Positions 14,392 through 40,954 of a stretch of DNA of 64,000 nucleotides are shown in pieces. The DNA is from Streptomyces macrolidinus (lineage in GTDB: Bacteria > Actinomycetota > Actinomycetes > Streptomycetales > Streptomycetaceae), in NCBI RefSeq assembly GCF_023887685.1, contig NZ_JAMWMR010000003.1:310001-374000 (forward strand), given 5' to 3'. The position numbers were made by a program, and so were the translations under genes. A model generated the notes under the pieces. It searched no databases, was not told where the DNA came from, and was given only the letters and a program-made list of their open reading frames with translations. How positions within the stretch are numbered: the first letter of the stretch is position 1; each line of letters begins with the position of its first letter.

Positions 14392-16602
<2,211 letters not shown>

Positions 16603-16766
16603 CGGACGAAGGCTCCCGGTTCCTCGGATACGCGATGTATCCGGATGGGCGGGGCGCATTGGGGCAACCGCCGACGACCGCTGCCCCGGAACGCTTGCTG
16701 CGGCCTACTGTTGAGGTGTACGCCTGCCATGCCCGGACGCGTGGCGGGCGGTCGGGCGCGATGTTG

Positions 16767-16781
16767 CTGACGGTTCGTCAG
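16767..16781. promoter_or_regulatory. Perfect palindrome upstream of GGDEF-EAL gene, BldD-box-like
   Basis: CTGACGGTTCGTCAG (6-bp arms, 3-nt centre) lies about 50 nt before the ATG at 16830. Compared with the BldD consensus TnACnCWGnGTnA it keeps TnAC and GTnA but differs in the centre (7 of 9 fixed positions). The rest of the 227-nt gap after ligA (16603-16829) shows no gene. Confidence 0.35.
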
Positions 16782-16829
16782 GCATCGGGCCGTATGACGT
16801 CGGCACCGCCGGCTGTGAGAGGGACGGGA

Positions 16830-19142
16830 ATGGAACGGACCGAGAGCGCCGCCCCGGACTCATGGCTGCGCCTGCGCCGGATGTCGGACGCCTGGCGCGC
16901 GGGGCGCTGGACGGCGTGGCTGTCGGGGTACCGGGGCGCGGACGGCCGAAGTGCCTTGCCGGGGCGTGTTCCTGGCGAGTCGCTCGCGGCGGACAGGACG
17001 CCGCGGCCCGTCGCGACCGGTCCTGCCGGACCTGCCGGTCCGTTCGCCGCCGGACAGCGCGCCGGGCGGCCCGGCCCGGACGGCGGCGGGCGCCCGTCCC
17101 GGTCCGTGCTGCTCTGGGCGGTCCTCGCGGCGGCCGGGCTCGCCCTCGGCGCCGCCTTCTTCCGCGCCTTCGGCGGACACCACGCGCTCTTCCCGCCCGG
17201 CACGGTCGGCTGGTCCCTGGCCCTGCTGACCGGCGTCATCGTCGGCCATCTGGTCGCCCTCGGCCGCGCCCGCTGGTGGGGCGGTACGGGCTCGGGCGCC
17301 GCCCTGACCCTCGCCGTCCTGCTGCTGTACGGCTGGGTGCCCGCCGCGATGGTGAGCCTCACGGTCGTCGTCCTGGTCGGCCTCGTGCGGCCGGGCTGCT
17401 GGCGGCAGGGCCTGCTGCACGGCGCGGTCGACATCCTCGGCGTCGGCGCCTCGACGCTCGCGCTGGCCGCCTTCGGGCACGTCCCGAGTGTCGAGTCCCC
17501 CTGGGAGCCGCGGAGTTGGACGATCGCCGCCGCGCCCGCGATCGTCCTCGCCGCCCTCGCCTACCTCGCGGTGACCCGGCTGCTGGTGTGGTGTCTCACC
17601 GCGCCGCGCATGGGCGGACTGCCCACCATCGCCCGTACCGCCCTGGTCCGGCAGGGCCTCGTCGCCGTCGCGCTGCTCGGCATAGCGCCACTGGTCTGCG
17701 TGGTCGCGAGGACGCTGCCCGTGCTGCTGCCGCTGTTCGCCATCCCGCTCATCGCCCTCGACTCCACCCTGTGGATCGCCCGCGCCCGCGCCGAGGAGCA
17801 GCTCCGCGACCCGCTCACCGGCCTGCCCAACCGGCAGTGGCTGCTGGAGCGCACATGGGCGGCGCTGGACGACGCCGAGCGCATCGGGGCGCGTTCCGCC
17901 CTGATGTTGATCGACCTCGACCGCTTCCGGTCGGTGAACGACACGCTCGGGCATCTCGCCGGTGACCGGCTGCTCCTCCAGATAGCGGAGCGGCTGCGGC
18001 TGGCGCTGCCCCGCGGGGCGGAGGCCGCGCGGCTCGGCGGCGACGAGTTCGCCGTGTTACTGCCCGTCGCGGACTCCACGACGTCCGCGTCCCGGGCGGC
18101 CCGCAATCTGGTCGCCGCGCTCGGCTCCCCGCTCGACCTGGACGGGCTCACGCTCGTCCTGGAGGCCAGCGCCGGTGTCGCCGTCTTCCCTGACCACGCG
18201 CTGGACGCGGAGGGGCTGCTGCGCCGGGCCGACGTCGCCATGTACCAGGCGAAGCGGGACCGTACGGGGGTGGAGGTGTACGAGTCCAAGCGGGACTCCA
18301 ACACCCCGGACCGGCTAGGGCTGCTGGGCGATCTGCGGCGCGCGCTGGACGCGCACGAGGTGGAGCTGCACTACCAGCCGAAGGTCCGCTTCGACGGACA
18401 GGTCGCCGGTCTCGAGGCGCTCGTGCGCTGGGTGCACCCCGAGCGCGGGAAGGTGCCGCCGGACGAGTTCATCGCCATCGCCGAGTCCTCCGGGCTGATG
18501 CCGCATCTGACGGAGTACGTCCTGGAGACCGCGCTCGGACAGGTGGCCCGGTGGCGGGCGCAGGGCCTGCGGGTCCCGGTGGCCGTGAACGTCTCCCCGC
18601 GCGACGTCCACACGCCGGGCTTCGCGGGCGCGGTGGCCGCGCGCCTGGCACGGCACGGCGTCCCGGCGGGCGCGCTGCAGTTGGAGATCACCGAGCATGT
18701 ACTCCTGGAGGACCCGCAGCGGGCCGCGGACACCCTGGCCGGGCTGGCCGGGCACGGCGTGAAGATGTCGCTGGACGACTTCGGCACGGGGTATTCGTCG
18801 CTGGTGCATCTGCGGCGGCTGCCGGTGAGCGAACTGAAGATCGACCGTTCGTTCGTGGCCCGGCTGGCCGTGGACGCCCAGGACGCGGAGATCGTGCGCT
18901 GCACGGTGGACCTCGCGCATTCGCTGGGCCTGCTCGTCGTCGCGGAGGGCGTCGAGGACGACGAGACCTGGGAGCGGCTGCGGGACCTGGGCTGCGACGC
19001 GGTCCAGGGCTGGCTGGTCGCCGCCGCGATGCCGCCGGAGGAGACCACGGCCTGGCTGCGGGCCCGGGGATCGAGGGGCTGGCAGCGCCCGAAGGCCGCG
19101 CTCCCGGCGGCTGCCGCGGACGACCAGGGGCGGATCGGTTAG
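16830..19142 (+). CDS. Membrane GGDEF-EAL c-di-GMP turnover protein (RmdB-like)
   Basis: 770 aa from ATG 16830 (GAGAGGG just upstream). After a Pro/Gly-rich cytoplasmic stretch come about six membrane helices (about residues 90-320). A GGDEF domain follows (GGDEF intact at 403-407, but the inhibitory site reads RGAE rather than RxxD), then an EAL domain with EAL at 529-531 and all metal and catalytic motifs kept ([31 protein letters not shown]). It should therefore be able to hydrolyse c-di-GMP and may also synthesise it. Position after ligA and before gatC fits the S. coelicolor phosphodiesterase RmdB as I remember it. Role in development is inferred from that. Confidence 0.9.
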
Positions 19143-23016: not shown

Positions 23017-23232
23017 ACGCGCGCTGACAAGAACCTTATGCGGCGGGGGAGTTGCCCGCGGTGGCTGTGAAGTGGGTCGCAATCCTGTGAGGAACCCCAC
23101 GAATGCGACAAACGATCACTTCTGGCTGCAACAGTGGACACAGACGTTCATTCGTTCTTTGCGAGCCGTTCAGTTCCCTCAGCGTCTGTTCCCGGGCAAA
23201 GATCGTCCAACCGTTCCCAGGGAGCGCGTCCC

Positions 23233-25473
23233 GTGGCAGCCCTCGCACGCTGGTGTATCCGCCACCGCCTCGCGGCGGTCCTGCTCTGGCTGCTCGCCTT
23301 CGGCGGAGTCGCCGTCGGCGCGGCGGCCACGGGGACCGCGTACACCAATCACTACGACGTCCCCGGCACCGAGACGGGCCGCGCCGCCGAGCTGCTCCAG
23401 AGGGGCTTCCCCGGACACGGCGGCGACAGCGACACCCTCGTCTGGCACACCGCCACCGGCAGCGTGCGCGCGTCCGGCGTCGAGCAGACGATGACCCGCA
23501 CCCTGGACAGGATCGAGGACCTGCCCGGCATCGCCTCCGTCACCAACCCCTACGCCGGCGACCACGGCGCCCAGATCAGCCGCGACGGCCGCACCGCGTA
23601 CGCCACGATCACCTTCGACGAGCAGAGCGAGAACATCAGCAAGGGCGAGGCCCAGGCCGTCGTCGACACCGCCCAGGCCGCCGAGAGCGACGAACTGCGG
23701 GTCGAACTGGGTGGCAGCGCGATCGCCCTCACCGAGGCGCGCAGCGGGCATCTCGCCGAGGCCGTCGGTGTGGTCGTCGCCGCCGTCGTCCTCTTCCTCG
23801 CCTTCGGCTCGCTCGCCGCCTCCCTGCTGCCCATCGCGACCGCGCTGATCGGCGTCGGCACCGCGTACGCCGGTATCGCCCTGCTCGGGCACGCCATGAC
23901 CGTCGCCGACTTCGCGCCCATGCTGGGCCTGCTGATCGGGCTCGGCGTCGGCATCGACTACGCCCTGTTCATCGTGACCCGGCACCGCCGCAGCCTGAAG
24001 CGGGGCGTCCCGGTGACGGAGGCCGCCGTGGGCGCCGTCGCCACCACCGGCCGGGCCGTCGTCTTCGCGGGCGCCACGGTGTGCATCGCGCTCCTCGGCA
24101 TGCTGATCCTCCGGCTCGGCTTCCTCAACGGTGTCGCGATCGCCGCCTGTCTCACCGTCCTGCTCACCGTCGCGGCCTCCGTGACCCTGCTGCCCGCCCT
24201 CCTGTCCTTCATCGGACCCCGCGCCCTCAGCAGGCGCGAGCGGCGCAGACTGGCCGAGAACGGGCCCGAACCGGAGCTGCCGGGAGGGTTCGCCGCCCGC
24301 TGGTCCGCGTTCGTCGAGCGCCACCCCAAGAAGCTCGGCGTCCTCGCCATGGCCGTCATGGCCGTCCTCGCGCTGCCCACGCTCTCCCTCCACCTGGGCA
24401 CCGCCGACCAGGGCAACGGCCCGAAGTCGGCGACCACCCGGCAGGCGTACGACCTCATCGCCGACGGGTTCGGGCCCGGCGTCAACGGCCCGCTCACCCT
24501 CGTCACCCGCGTCGGCGGCGCCGAGGACAGGCTCGCGCTCGACCACCTCGACAGCACGCTCGCGGCCACGCGGGGCGTCGCGAGCGTGAGCCCGGTGACC
24601 TACAACAGCGGCGGCGACATGGCGCTCCTCACCGTCGTCCCCGACTCCGCCCCGCAGTCCCGGGACACCAGCGAACTCGTGGACCGGCTGCGCACCGAGG
24701 TGCTGCCGCGCGCCGAGCAGGGCACCACGCTCGACCTCGCGGTGGGCGGCAGGACCGCGGCCTACGACGACTTCGCGAGCGTGATCGTCGGCAAGCTGCC
24801 GCTGTTCGTCGGGGTGGTGATCAGCCTCGGCTGTGTGCTGCTCCTGTTCGCCTTCCGCTCGATCGGCATCCCGCTGAAGGCCGCCGTGATGAACGTCGCG
24901 GCCGTCGCCTCCGCCTTCGGCGTGGTCGTCGCGATCTTCCAATGGGGCTGGGGAAGCGAACTGCTGGGCCTCGGCCGGGCCGGGCCCATCGAACCCTTCC
25001 TCCCCGTGATCATGGTCTCGGTGCTCTTCGGGCTCTCCATGGACTACCAGGTGTTCCTGGTCAGCCGCATGTACGAGGAGTGGCGGGAGACCGGCGACAA
25101 CCGGCGCGCCGTACGCGTCGGCCTGGCCGAGACCGGCCGGGTCATCAACTCCGCGGCGGTCATCATGATCTCCGTCTTCCTCGCCTTCGTCCTCAGCGGC
25201 GACCGGGTGATCGCCATGTTCGGCATCGCGCTCGCCGCGGCCGTCGCCCTGGACGCCTTCGTCCTGCGGACCCTTCTCGTCCCCGCGCTGATGCATCTGC
25301 TCGGCGGCGCCAACTGGTGGCTGCCGTCCTGGCTGGAGCGCCGCCTTCCGCACATCAGCATCGAACCGCCGGAACACCGTGCGACCATGCCCCGGAAGAC
25401 GGCGCACGAGGACGCGCTCATGGACGCACTGGTGAAGGAGCAGCAGCAGGATGTACGCGATATCCCTGGGTGA
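23233..25473 (+). CDS. MMPL family RND-type membrane transporter
   Basis: 746 aa from GTG 23233, preferred over the longer frame from 23134 because AGGGAGCG sits about 8 nt upstream and translation then begins AALARWCIRHRLAAVLLW, the usual start of the first membrane helix. Two repeats of one helix plus large extracytoplasmic loop plus five-helix bundle give about 12 membrane segments; GIDYALFIVTR and the second-half SMDYQVFLVSRMYEEW are the proton-relay motifs of the family. MMPL proteins export lipids or drugs. Its end overlaps the GNAT gene by 23 nt. Confidence 0.93.
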   Translation: MAALARWCIRHRLAAVLLWLLAFGGVAVGAAATGTAYTNHYDVPGTETGRAAELLQRGFPGHGGDSDTLVWHTATGSVRASGVEQTMTRTLDRIEDLPGIASVTNPYAGDHGAQISRDGRTAYATITFDEQSENISKGEAQAVVDTAQAAESDELRVELGGSAIALTEARSGHLAEAVGVVVAAVVLFLAFGSLAASLLPIATALIGVGTAYAGIALLGHAMTVADFAPMLGLLIGLGVGIDYALFIVTRHRRSLKRGVPVTEAAVGAVATTGRAVVFAGATVCIALLGMLILRLGFLNGVAIAACLTVLLTVAASVTLLPALLSFIGPRALSRRERRRLAENGPEPELPGGFAARWSAFVERHPKKLGVLAMAVMAVLALPTLSLHLGTADQGNGPKSATTRQAYDLIADGFGPGVNGPLTLVTRVGGAEDRLALDHLDSTLAATRGVASVSPVTYNSGGDMALLTVVPDSAPQSRDTSELVDRLRTEVLPRAEQGTTLDLAVGGRTAAYDDFASVIVGKLPLFVGVVISLGCVLLLFAFRSIGIPLKAAVMNVAAVASAFGVVVAIFQWGWGSELLGLGRAGPIEPFLPVIMVSVLFGLSMDYQVFLVSRMYEEWRETGDNRRAVRVGLAETGRVINSAAVIMISVFLAFVLSGDRVIAMFGIALAAAVALDAFVLRTLLVPALMHLLGGANWWLPSWLERRLPHISIEPPEHRATMPRKTAHEDALMDALVKEQQQDVRDIPG

Positions 25474-26017
25474 CGACGGAGCCGAACTGCGTCCCCTGGA
25501 GCCCTGGCACGCCGAGGAGTTCCTCGCCCATCTCGACCGCGGGCGCGAGTTCATCAACCAGTACGTCCCGTTCGGGTCCAAGGCCACGGACGTGGCCGGC
25601 GCGCGCACCATCCTGCAGTCGTTCGCCGACCGGCGCGCCGCGGACACCGGCTTCCTGCACGGGCTGTGGCTGGACGACAAGCTGGTCGGCGGCGTGCTCT
25701 TCCCCCTCTTCGACGCCGAGCACGGCACTTGCGAGATGGGCGTCTGGCTGGAGCCCGCGGCGGCCGGGCGGGGCCTGGTCACGCGCGGCGCGCGGGCGCT
25801 CATCGACTGGGCGTTTGACGAGCGCGGCATGCACCGTGTGGAGTGGCAGGCGTCGCCCGCCAACGAACCGAGTGTCAACGTGGCGCGGCGGCTGGGCATG
25901 ACACGCGAGGGTGTGCTCCGCGAGAGCTTCCCGCATCGTGGCGTACGCCACGACATGGAGGTCTGGTCGGTGCTCGCCCCCGAGTGGCGCGAGGCACGCG
26001 CGCGTGCCCGGAAGTGA
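25451..26017 (+). CDS. GNAT family N-acetyltransferase (RimJ/RimL type)
   Basis: 188 aa. Starts inside the end of the MMPL gene (AAGGAGCAGCAGCAGG upstream), so the two are translationally coupled. RimJ/L-like pattern: ELRPLEPWHAEEFLAHL at the N-terminus, CEMGVWLEPAAAGRGLVTRGARALIDWAF containing the acetyl-CoA loop, then HRVEWQASPANEPSVNVARRLGM. Transfers an acetyl group to an amine, either protein N-termini or a small molecule. The link to the exporter hints at a shared role, but the substrate is not visible. Confidence 0.92.
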   Translation: MYAISLGDDGAELRPLEPWHAEEFLAHLDRGREFINQYVPFGSKATDVAGARTILQSFADRRAADTGFLHGLWLDDKLVGGVLFPLFDAEHGTCEMGVWLEPAAAGRGLVTRGARALIDWAFDERGMHRVEWQASPANEPSVNVARRLGMTREGVLRESFPHRGVRHDMEVWSVLAPEWREARARARK

Positions 26018-33564: not shown

Positions 33565-34073
33565 CCGGTGCGGGGGAGGCGGCGGACGGAGAGCCGGGAG
33601 GGGTGAACGGGCCGTTCCGGCGCACGATTTCAGCCGCCGCGCCCTCGGGCGCACGCGGTGCCCGACGGCCGTACCACCGGGGTGCGCATCGTCTACGGTT
33701 TCGCTCCCGGAACGCTTCGGGCACACTCCGCAGTCCCCCGTACGCGGTAAGTACCCGCACCCTTGCTGATCGTTACGGAGCGTAGAGGGGCTATGTCCCT
33801 GAGTGACGAGACTGGTGTATCGTCCCGACAGGGGATGCGCCGCGCAGGTTCGGCGCCGGGGACGGAACTTTGAGACATGTGAGGGGGGCGACGGGCGATG
33901 TACGGCCTATCGACGAACGATCCGAAGCGGCGTGACCGCGAGCGGCGACCCTGGCAAGCGGTGGCCCGCGGAGACGGTCACGGCGATCACAACCGCGGAG
34001 ACGGTCACGGCGGTCACAACCCACCCCGCCGGGACCGGTGGCACCCGGTGGCATCTCGGCTCGGGAGGATCCG
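33565..34073. promoter_or_regulatory. 509-nt upstream region of the second GGDEF-EAL gene
   Basis: No gene with a ribosome site was found. At 33772-33786, gTTACGGAGCGTAGa fits 7 of 9 fixed positions of the BldD box (nTnACnCWGnGTnAn). At 33966-34019 a 27-bp unit is repeated twice in tandem with one mismatch (contains CGGAGACGGTCACGGCG). GGGAGGAT at 34062-34069 is the ribosome site of the next gene. Confidence 0.4.
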
Positions 34074-37000
34074 GTGAGCTCCCTCGGAGCACTGCCGGCC
34101 CGCCGCCCGGTCCCGGGCGGCCCCACGCGCCTGGTTCCGCAACTCGCCCTGGTCCTGGTGTGCGCGACCTACGCCGTGGGCTCCGCGCTCGGCTGGGGCT
34201 CCCGGCGACTCGCGCTGTTCATGGGTGACTTCGGGCTGAGCGTCGCGGCGGGTATCGCGGCGGTCTCGTGTTTCATCTACGCCCGTAGCACGCGCAGCCG
34301 CTTCCGCCCCGCCTGGCTGCTGTTCGCGCTCTCCTCCGCCATGGCGACGCTGGGCAACGCCGTCTGGGGCTGGTACGAGGTCGTCCTCCAGGACCCCGTC
34401 CCCTCGCCCAGCTACGCCGACCTCTTCTTCCTCTGCTTCGCTCCACCGGCCATCGTAGGACTGCTCGTGCTCGCCAAAAGGCCTGTCAGCAAGGCGGGTT
34501 GGGTCTGCCTCGGGCTCGACGCATGGCTGATCGGCGGCTCGCTGCTCACGCTGTCGTGGAGCCTCGCGCTCGCCCAGGCGGCCAAGTTCGACGGACCGAG
34601 CGTCGCGCACACCGCGCTCTCGCTCGCCTACCCGCTCCTGGACATCGCCCTGATCAGCATGGTTCTCGCGTTGCACTTCCGGGGCTCGGCGGTCCACCGC
34701 TCGGCGGTCAACACCGCCATCGGCGCGCTCGCCCTGACCGTGATGTGCGACGCCCTGTTCACCTCACCGCTGCTGCACAGCAGTTACCGCTCGGGCCAGT
34801 TGCTGGACGCGGGCTGGTTCTCCGGCTCGCTGCTCCTGGCCTACGCCCCCTGGCTCGGCTCCCGGTACCGGCTGCCGAGCCCCGACGGCCACGCCCGCCC
34901 GCCCCACGGCCAGGTGCCGGGCCAGCGGCAGACGGCCGACGGGCGGACGGGCCGCCAGGACGGGCACCCGCACACACGCCCGCACCCGCTCACCCGAGGC
35001 CGGGACCACGGCTCCTCCCGGCAGCCGGACCCCGGCCCCGCGCGCGAGCCGGGCCACGCGCCGCCGAAGGAGGCGGGACTCCCGCAGGACCTCGGCCGCG
35101 AGTGGTACGCGGCCACGGGCGCGCGCCCGATCGCCGGGTGTTCGCTGGCCGCGCTCACGCCCTACCTGGCCGCCGCCGTCTGCACCCTGGGGATCCTCTA
35201 CAACGTCCTCAACGGCCAGAGCATCGACCGCGTGGTGCTCATCACCGCGGGCGCCGTGGTGCTCGCGCTCGTCGTCCGCCAGGGCATCATGCTGCTCGAC
35301 AACATCACCCTCACCCGGGAACTGGCGCAGAAGGAGAACCACTTCCGCTCCCTGGTGCAGGGCTCCAGCGACGTCATCATGATCGCCGCGCCCGACGGCA
35401 CCCTCAACTACGTCTCCCCGGCCGCCGCCGGCGTCTACGGACGCTCCGCCGAGGAACTGGTCGGCACCGAACTCGCCGCGCTCATCCACCCGGAGGACCT
35501 GGGCTGCGTGGTGCACGAAGTACGCCGCTTCCTCGCCGCCGGCCACGCCGAGGAACCCACCACGCGCATCGAGTGCCGCTTCAGGTCGGGCCGCGGCGGC
35601 TGGCTCAACGTCGAGTCCACGGTCAACCGCCACCACGGCGGACTGATCCTCAACAGCCGGGACGTGACCGAGAGAGTGCGCCTCCAGGCACAGCTCCAAC
35701 ACAGCGCCGAGCACGACCCGCTCACGGACCTGCCCAACCGCGCCCTGTTCACCAAGCGGGTCCAGCAGGCCCTCTCCGGCCGCCGCTCCTCCGACCGCGG
35801 CGCCGCCCTGCGCAACACCGCGGTGCTCTTCCTCGACCTCGACGGCTTCAAGGCCGTCAACGACACCATCGGCCACCACGCGGGCGACGAACTGCTCGTC
35901 CAGGCCGCCCGCAGACTCCAGGAAGCGCTGCGGCAGGGCGACACGGCCGCCCGTCTGGGCGGCGACGAGTTCGCGGCCCTGATCGTCGGCGACGGCACGC
36001 ACGACCGCACCGCGCGCGAACGCCACATCCTCGAACTCGCCGACCGGCTCCGCGTCACGCTCTCCCAGCCGTACGACATCGACGGCAACGACGTCCGGGT
36101 GGCCGCGTCCATCGGAGTGGCCTTCTCCGAGCCGGGCCAGGGCGCCGGTGAACTGCTGCGCAACGCCGACCTCGCCATGTACCGCGCCAAGGCGGGCGGC
36201 AAGAACCGCGTCGAGCTGTACGCGCCCCAGATGCAGCAGGACGTGGCGCGCAGGACCGAGCCGGGCGCGCGGCTGCGCGCGGCGCTGCGGGACGGCGAGT
36301 TCGTGCTGGTGCATCAGCCCGTGGTGTCGCTGGACGACGGCCGGATCGCCTCGGTCGGCGCCCAGGCGCGCTGGCGCTCCTCCCAGGGAGTGCTCTTCAC
36401 ACCCGCCGAGTTCCTGCGCGTCTCCGAGGACAGCGACAAGGCCGCCGAACTGGGCCGCTGGACGCTGGAGGAGGCCGTCGAGCAGGCCGCCCGGCGCACC
36501 GCGGCCGGGCTCGCCGTGCCCGTCGCCGTGAGCATGAGCGCCCGGCGGCTGCTCGACCGTTCCCTGCCCCTCGGCTCCGTGGAGGCCCTCCTCGCCCGGC
36601 ACGGCCTGGCCTCGGGGGCGCTGACGATCGAGCTGTCGGGCATCGACCCGCGCGTCTGCCTGGACGACCTGGAGCGCAGGCTCGGCGCCCTGCGCAGGAT
36701 CGGCGTCCGGATCGCTCTCGACGGCTTCGGCAGCGGCTACGCGGCCATCACGGCGCTGCGCAGTCTCCCCGTCGACGCCCTGAAGATCGACCGCGAGCTG
36801 GTCGAGGGCGTCGTCGAGTCCGCCCGGCTGCACAAGATCACCAGCGGCCTGCTGCGGATCGCATCGGACCTGGGGCTCGAATCGGTCGCCGACGGAGTGG
36901 ACCTGCCCGAGCAGGTCGCCGCGCTGCGCGCGATGGGCTGTACGCACGGCCAGGGCATGGCCTTCTCCGGGCCGCTGGACGAACACCTGCTGCGCCGGGA

Positions 37001-37154
37001 GCTGGCCGCCGGCCGCTATCCGGTGCCGCACGGCCCGGCGGAGCCGGTCCTCGCAGGCGGGGGAGTGGAGGTGTACACCGGAAGCGTGCCCGCTGTTTTC
37101 GGAGGTGGAACGGGATTGCGCTCACATAATGAGACGTCCGTCCCACCTGCTTGA
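34074..37154 (+). CDS. Membrane PAS-GGDEF-EAL protein with degenerate EAL domain (putative diguanylate cyclase, CdgE-like)
   Basis: 1026 aa from GTG 34074 (GGGAGGAT just upstream). About eight membrane helices to residue 265, a hydrophilic Pro/Arg/His-rich linker (268-345), two more helices (about 350-405), and a PAS domain (about 420-540). The GGDEF domain has GGDEF intact at 629-633 and an intact inhibitory RQGD site. The EAL domain is present in length but broken in key places: EAL is replaced by GAQ at 762-764 and the metal-binding DDFG by DGFG at 883-886. So it should make c-di-GMP but not degrade it. Location directly before ilvB fits S. coelicolor CdgE as I remember it. Confidence 0.88.
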   Translation: MSSLGALPARRPVPGGPTRLVPQLALVLVCATYAVGSALGWGSRRLALFMGDFGLSVAAGIAAVSCFIYARSTRSRFRPAWLLFALSSAMATLGNAVWGWYEVVLQDPVPSPSYADLFFLCFAPPAIVGLLVLAKRPVSKAGWVCLGLDAWLIGGSLLTLSWSLALAQAAKFDGPSVAHTALSLAYPLLDIALISMVLALHFRGSAVHRSAVNTAIGALALTVMCDALFTSPLLHSSYRSGQLLDAGWFSGSLLLAYAPWLGSRYRLPSPDGHARPPHGQVPGQRQTADGRTGRQDGHPHTRPHPLTRGRDHGSSRQPDPGPAREPGHAPPKEAGLPQDLGREWYAATGARPIAGCSLAALTPYLAAAVCTLGILYNVLNGQSIDRVVLITAGAVVLALVVRQGIMLLDNITLTRELAQKENHFRSLVQGSSDVIMIAAPDGTLNYVSPAAAGVYGRSAEELVGTELAALIHPEDLGCVVHEVRRFLAAGHAEEPTTRIECRFRSGRGGWLNVESTVNRHHGGLILNSRDVTERVRLQAQLQHSAEHDPLTDLPNRALFTKRVQQALSGRRSSDRGAALRNTAVLFLDLDGFKAVNDTIGHHAGDELLVQAARRLQEALRQGDTAARLGGDEFAALIVGDGTHDRTARERHILELADRLRVTLSQPYDIDGNDVRVAASIGVAFSEPGQGAGELLRNADLAMYRAKAGGKNRVELYAPQMQQDVARRTEPGARLRAALRDGEFVLVHQPVVSLDDGRIASVGAQARWRSSQGVLFTPAEFLRVSEDSDKAAELGRWTLEEAVEQAARRTAAGLAVPVAVSMSARRLLDRSLPLGSVEALLARHGLASGALTIELSGIDPRVCLDDLERRLGALRRIGVRIALDGFGSGYAAITALRSLPVDALKIDRELVEGVVESARLHKITSGLLRIASDLGLESVADGVDLPEQVAALRAMGCTHGQGMAFSGPLDEHLLRRELAAGRYPVPHGPAEPVLAGGGVEVYTGSVPAVFGGGTGLRSHNETSVPPA

Positions 37155-37430: not shown

Positions 37431-37448
37431 ATCGAGAAGAGAATGCCG

Positions 37449-40954
<3,506 letters not shown>

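Follow-up and report, generated by a model that had tools for sequence, protein, structure and literature searches.

The stretch analyzed here (the window) comprises 64,000 nucleotides of the Streptomyces macrolidinus contig NZ_JAMWMR010000003.1 (positions 310,001 to 374,000; G+C content, 71%) and carries a gene for a protein with both a GGDEF (diguanylate cyclase) and an EAL (phosphodiesterase) domain. This gene, which we assign to cdgC, is predicted to encode an N-terminal membrane region followed by PAS, GGDEF, and degenerate EAL domains (Table 1). The N-terminal domain is common to the CdgC family, as seen by alignment and genome searches, and served as a mark of orthology; its transmembrane status is taken from published CdgC. 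The open frame starts at a GTG codon at 34038 and runs to 37154. Because GGGAGGA lies five bases ahead of a second GTG at 34074 (GTG 34038 is preceded by GGGA), the latter, also used in the initial annotation, is likely the better start. Residue numbers given below count from the 34038 frame.

The cyclase half of the protein has the features expected of an active enzyme, with the GGDEF motif and the RxxD inhibitory site (RQGD) at standard spacing. The canonical active-site set of an EAL domain is E-N-E-D-D-K-E-E-Q. When these positions were placed on CdgC via alignments to solved EAL domains, the window protein read G-S-G-D-G-K-D-D-Q. Thus, six of the nine positions of a complete phosphodiesterase set are replaced (E774→G, N832→S, E868→G, D896→G, E952→D, and E955→D), while D895, K916, and Q972 remain. 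The initial annotation had described GAQ in place of EAL and DGFG in place of DDFG, beside intact GGDEF and RQGD motifs; all of these letters were found where described, and the loss extends further, to residues 832, 868, 952, and 955.

We compared the window protein with those of 80 Streptomyces ortholog loci (75 to 85% identity), for a total of 81 sequences. Because GGDEF, the Arg and Asp of RxxD (R632 and D635), and DGFG apart from its Phe (D895-G896 included) are identical in 81/81 sequences, the motif states of the window are not a matter of chance; the Phe is present in 76/81. Position 774 varies among the 81 sequences (Ser, n = 40; Ala, n = 23; Cys, n = 8; Thr, n = 5; Glu, n = 3; Gly, n = 1; one other). 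At position 832, the window alone has Ser; the 80 other loci all have Arg. Both G774 and S832 are among several private residues of the window copy.

By sequence, the gene is an ortholog of CdgC (SCO5511/SVEN_5187/SSFG_02181), a name to which all three locus tags are tied (PMC7911125). In S. venezuelae, CdgC has a highly degenerate EAL domain and a conserved GGDEF domain, a truncated form of it is a c-di-GMP (cyclic di-GMP)-making cyclase in vitro, and changing GGDEF to ALLEF gives a null, deletion-like phenotype; the protein is membrane located, and at least 91 of 93 Streptomyces have the gene (PMC6205966). The ortholog from S. ghanaensis carries RxxD and produces c-di-GMP, which it did not hydrolyze to pGpG; it also binds heme and is repressed by BldD, which binds two boxes (PMC7374567). 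The claim of the initial annotation that the protein should synthesize and not degrade c-di-GMP is thus backed by published data on orthologs, and the finding is already known in its main points (cyclase activity, no c-di-GMP hydrolysis, and a degenerate EAL domain in orthologs). CdgC is among the cyclases that set the timing of sporulation and antibiotic production in Streptomyces (PMC6205966, PMC7374567).

Both BldD boxes upstream of the window gene are identical to those of the S. ghanaensis ortholog. With at most one mismatch, box I is present in 62/80 and box II in 77/80 ortholog loci. The BldD consensus and boxes used in these counts were those of PMC7374567; another pattern, AGTGA-N4-TCACT, was dropped (58 matches versus 118 expected by chance).

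Table 1. Features of the cdgC locus, with the linked rmdB gene (coordinates are positions in the window)
Feature	Coordinates	Strand	Basis or remark
cdgC ortholog: membrane, PAS, GGDEF, degenerate EAL	34074..37154	+	Open reading frame, Pfam, 80 Streptomyces orthologs
N-terminal domain (presumed transmembrane, after published CdgC); orthology mark	34155..34883	+	Alignment, genome searches
PAS domain	35340..35681	+	Pfam PAS models (residues 435-548, 34038 frame)
GGDEF (diguanylate cyclase) domain	35706..36209	+	Pfam PF00990, 6.4e-40
RQGD (RxxD inhibitory site)	35931..35942	+	Five residues ahead of the GGDEF motif
GGDEF motif	35958..35972	+	
Degenerate EAL domain	36270..36974	+	Pfam PF00563, 9.2e-49; Foldseek to EAL structures
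GAQ replacing EAL	36357..36365	+	
Ser replacing metal-binding Asn (residue 832)	36531..36533	+	Codon AGC
DGFG replacing DDFG (D895, G896)	36720..36731	+	
BldD box I, identical to S. ghanaensis ortholog's box	33772..33786	-	Letters from PMC7374567
BldD box II, identical to S. ghanaensis ortholog's box	33793..33807	+	Letters from PMC7374567
Open frame holding rmdB	16233..19142	+	Pfam GGDEF 2.3e-39, EAL 7.5e-72
PRGA of RmdB, aligned with RxxD	18009..18020	+	
Intact EAL domain of RmdB	18330..19025	+	Pfam residues 700-931; residue set intact
Acetolactate synthase large subunit, downstream neighbor of cdgC	37443..39296	+	Pfam TPP_enzyme N/M/C

About 18 kb upstream of cdgC lies the gene for the other GGDEF-EAL protein of the window, which from its domains and place can be identified as RmdB (SCO5495/SVEN_5165). 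Its true start would lie well inside the frame that opens at 16233, near 17000 if the GGDEF domain, as published for RmdB, begins at about residue 258 (PMC13232838). The GGDEF motif is found at 18036. The initial annotation had given this protein the pattern opposite to that of CdgC, with an intact EAL domain and RGAE in place of RxxD. The pattern stands, as the EAL domain is intact and both the Arg and the Asp of RxxD are missing, but the aligned letters are PRGA, with RGAE one residue out of register. It also fits PMC13232838, in which RmdB has phosphodiesterase activity with no cyclase activity detected, its GGDEF domain binds the sigma factor WhiG, and a two-hybrid contact with CdgC is described. 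The genome as a whole yielded six GGDEF and four EAL domains. Among its four GGDEF-EAL proteins, RxxD is found only in CdgC, and the EAL and DDFG letters are missing only in CdgC. The GGDEF-EAL proteins L001/L008, L003, and L004/L009 of this genome have intact EAL and DDFG motifs, all without RxxD.

Copies of CdgC were then compared across 85 genomes (a subset of those with a listed copy), 80 from the window's family (taken to be Streptomycetaceae; the window's own gene, L133, included), one from a sister family, and four from another family of the order. One locus was dropped as a paralog (L190, 388.8 bits; in that genome, the N-terminal domain is found at another place, within a frame of 387 residues), and another was dropped because it repeats L145 (L206). 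Nine of 121 genomes of the window's family had no CdgC match at 1e-110; eight of these carry the N-terminal domain in frames of >1000 residues and stand outside the residue counts. The genome G107 (genus g14; assembly 93% complete) gave no match to CdgC (1e-110), RmdB (1e-150), or the CdgC N-terminal domain (0.001), and it is the only one of the 121 without an RmdB match at 1e-150. In G160 (assembly 76% complete), the CdgC N-terminal domain lies in a 387-residue open frame (L344, contig C4 near 7997776), where the cdgC gene may be broken.

All 85 CdgC copies have an intact GGDEF motif and both residues of RxxD. The single sister-family copy has a complete EAL site. In the window's family, 79 copies bear an EAL domain. 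None of these keeps the Asn of the site, and the other residues are kept to various extents: Glu955 (4 copies), the second Asp (6), the second Glu (15), Glu952, which is the third Glu (31), the E of EAL (38), the first Asp (48), Lys (56), and Gln (68). All copies of the early-branching genera g6 and g9 (n = 3 each) keep the E of EAL, and 5/6 keep both Asp residues, yet all have lost the Asn and at least one Glu; therefore, the E of EAL was not the first to go. In the window's genus, it is lost in 27/28 copies.

The whole EAL domain is absent from five CdgC copies, four from the other family of the order and one from the window's family (L158), all of which end after GGDEF. A tblastn search with four EAL queries recovered a 16-residue EAL stump in L158 (E value, 3e-4) and otherwise nothing below an E value of 0.03 at the EAL-less loci, save one match (0.002) that falls within PAS-GGDEF of the copy from f3g4. 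A tree built without the EAL columns, from 50 of the 85 copies and five outgroup rows, requires at least three changes of EAL state. The outgroup consisted of matches outside the order that carry the N-terminal domain (up to 150 bits), homologs of uncertain orthology. By a simple pattern scan, 16 of the 20 fetched have the EAL motif and DDFG; the Asn pattern was found in 8 of those 16, including the five tree rows, and was missed by the scan in the other 8.

RmdB was scored in 79 genomes, the window's own copy (L257) included. Nine of 10 scored EAL residues are kept in 79/79 copies and the second Asp in 77/79; the A of EAL is G in 4/79. RxxD is kept in only 8/79 copies, four of which (L331 to L334, genus g3) are less sure as orthologs. 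GGDEF is kept in 71/79 copies and reads SGDEF in 8/79 (L295, L296, L298, and L326 of g7; L328 to L330 of f3g5; and L297 of g19). The SGDEF copies look as if their cyclase motif were decaying.

The two genes share a contig in 81/85 genomes, 9.6 to 35 kb apart. Both are available from 67 genomes, 62 of which have an EAL domain in CdgC, giving 1891 pairs that are not independent (G148, without EAL, was excluded). For CdgC, the GGDEF domains are more similar than the EAL domains in 1828/1891 pairs (medians, 0.701 and 0.539, respectively); for RmdB, EAL is more alike than GGDEF in 1840/1891 pairs (medians for GGDEF and EAL, 0.662 and 0.818, respectively). Both trends hold together in 1779/1891 pairs, in 53/61 comparisons with the window alone, and in 61/61 with the sister-family genome. 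These data suggest a mirror-image history, to which we assign an even chance of being correct: cdgC and rmdB (10 to 35 kb apart) would come from two complete GGDEF-EAL proteins, with opposite halves lost within the window's family. CdgC would have lost its EAL chemistry (Asn first, the second Asp next, and the E of EAL last), and RmdB would have lost its feedback site RxxD along with, in some genera, the initial G of the GGDEF motif. The dead EAL domain of CdgC, bearing a derived Arg or Lys in the old metal site, would have been kept as a regulatory module of the cyclase. Among the open-access papers listed in our searches, no title or abstract opening gave an account of the history of the pair beyond the genus; we offer this history as an addition from the present data, short of a proven first.

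Ratios of nonsynonymous to synonymous substitution (dN/dS) were obtained as Nei-Gojobori counts over 3166 of the 3240 Streptomyces pairs, which are not independent. Median values were 0.212 for the N-terminal domain, 0.107 for PAS, 0.146 for GGDEF, and 0.183 for EAL, with the EAL value above that of GGDEF in 2334/3166 pairs. In addition, 37% of the EAL-domain columns are invariant among the 81 Streptomyces sequences. By these measures, the EAL remnant is looser than the working GGDEF domain but clearly constrained. Because it is still under purifying selection, a structural, dimerizing, or regulatory role is likely.

The initial annotation had proposed that the remnant may sense c-di-GMP or GTP. 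A receptor of this kind, tuning the cyclase in the manner of the degenerate EAL domains of FimX or LapD, is possible but rather unlikely, and the hints are weak in both directions. The fold is retained, with Foldseek TM-scores of about 0.7 to EAL structures (root mean square deviation [rmsd], 6 to 8) and of 0.73 to FimX 3hv9 (rmsd, 7.5). These values come from an EAL-only model (predicted local distance difference test score [pLDDT], 77) used for the fold check only; an AlphaFold model of PAS-GGDEF-EAL went unused (mean pLDDT, 59, a value probably due to the close relationship among its 30 rows). Q760, R778, and F976 are identical in 81/81 Streptomyces sequences. Across the family, six presumed ligand-contact columns vary somewhat less than the remaining columns of the domain (entropy, 0.79 versus 1.36 bits; 4.4% of random sets were as low), but within Streptomyces they do not (0.41 versus 0.38 bits). 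In 68/79 family copies, the Asn has given way to Arg or Lys, a derived basic residue that might bind phosphate without metal, but the window protein has lost it. The absence of the EAL domain from five genomes also speaks against a receptor. Binding of a ligand or partner by the degenerate EAL domain of CdgC was already floated in 2018 (PMC6205966).

That the remnant is instead a passive leftover without function seems improbable to us. The catalytic columns of CdgC drift like the rest of the EAL domain in the family (1.26 versus 1.36 bits; the corresponding values for RmdB are 0.00 and 0.55), and the complete absence of the domain from the five genomes noted above and its higher dN/dS relative to GGDEF in most pairs would also be expected of a leftover. 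However, the median dN/dS of the EAL domain is near that of GGDEF and below that of the N-terminal domain, and the share of invariant columns likewise counts against this explanation. Weak residual phosphodiesterase activity, which would make the protein bifunctional, is highly improbable: D895, K916, and Q972 are still present, but the other six site residues are replaced, and the S. ghanaensis ortholog shows no hydrolysis (PMC7374567).

We therefore favor, with high confidence, the reading of the gene as cdgC, encoding a PAS-regulated membrane diguanylate cyclase restrained by its product at RxxD, with an EAL domain that is dead but retained and with RmdB working in the opposite direction. 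CdgC would make c-di-GMP via its GGDEF domain, and c-di-GMP binding at RxxD would restrain it, a product inhibition that we infer. Having lost metal and catalytic residues, the EAL domain would be unable to hydrolyze c-di-GMP. The product would feed BldD, which would repress cdgC in turn, as shown for orthologs and as the identical BldD boxes suggest here. The EAL domain was probably once complete and would have become inactive in the ancestor of the window's family, the remnant being kept by purifying selection as a structural, dimerizing, or regulatory module. With RxxD lost from the nearby phosphodiesterase RmdB and EAL chemistry lost from CdgC, the two linked enzymes would now act in opposite directions.

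Several points weigh against this account. The activity assigned to the window protein is that of its orthologs, and its private changes, including G774 and S832, mean that it could differ from those assayed. The tree was made quickly, long branches come together at its root, and the fork that joins the window's family to the other family of the order has 51% support, such that the deepest order is unsure. A complete EAL domain in CdgC is represented by one sister-family genome and the outgroup homologs. That five genomes, including one of the window's family, have lost the domain speaks against its being indispensable. Finally, with GGDEF letters in 71/79 RmdB copies, sequence alone would not call the RmdB cyclase dead.

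The genes around cdgC are in keeping with this assignment, with rmdB upstream and ilvB downstream, as in a CdgC-type neighborhood (the ilvB side was checked in the window alone). By Pfam, the order is NAD-dependent DNA ligase, rmdB, amidase (gatA), gatB, a LuxR-type ATPase, 2-hydroxyacid dehydrogenase, cdgC, acetolactate synthase large and small subunits (ilvB and ilvN), ketol-acid reductoisomerase (ilvC), and phosphoglycerate dehydrogenase. This order is like that of S. coelicolor. Elsewhere in the window, two open frames of >900 residues each overlap on opposite strands (23103-25898, plus; 23179-25956, minus); the plus-strand frame has no Pfam match.

The cross-genus series, which includes a sister-family CdgC with both halves complete, EAL-less relatives, and a mirror-image RmdB, amounts to a natural test set for asking what part a dead EAL domain plays in a working cyclase. 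Compared with known systems, the window protein is closest to CdgC of Streptomyces, being the same gene in another species; the two are alike in architecture, GGDEF, RxxD (noted for SSFG_02181), degenerate EAL domain, and BldD boxes. The window copy differs by its private G774 (mostly Ser or Ala in the others) and S832 (Arg in all others). RmdB of Streptomyces is likewise a GGDEF-EAL protein but keeps the opposite half, an intact EAL domain with proven phosphodiesterase activity; it has the GGDEF letters but has lost RxxD, and no cyclase activity was detected (PMC13232838). The resemblance to degenerate-EAL receptors is of another kind, as CdgC shares with FimX and LapD an EAL fold with lost catalytic residues but has an active GGDEF domain and matches them weakly in sequence (5e-14 to 8e-12). 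Both FimX and LapD bind c-di-GMP without hydrolyzing it. Among the structures matched by the CdgC remnant were those of FimX and a solved c-di-GMP binding protein that we take to be LapD.

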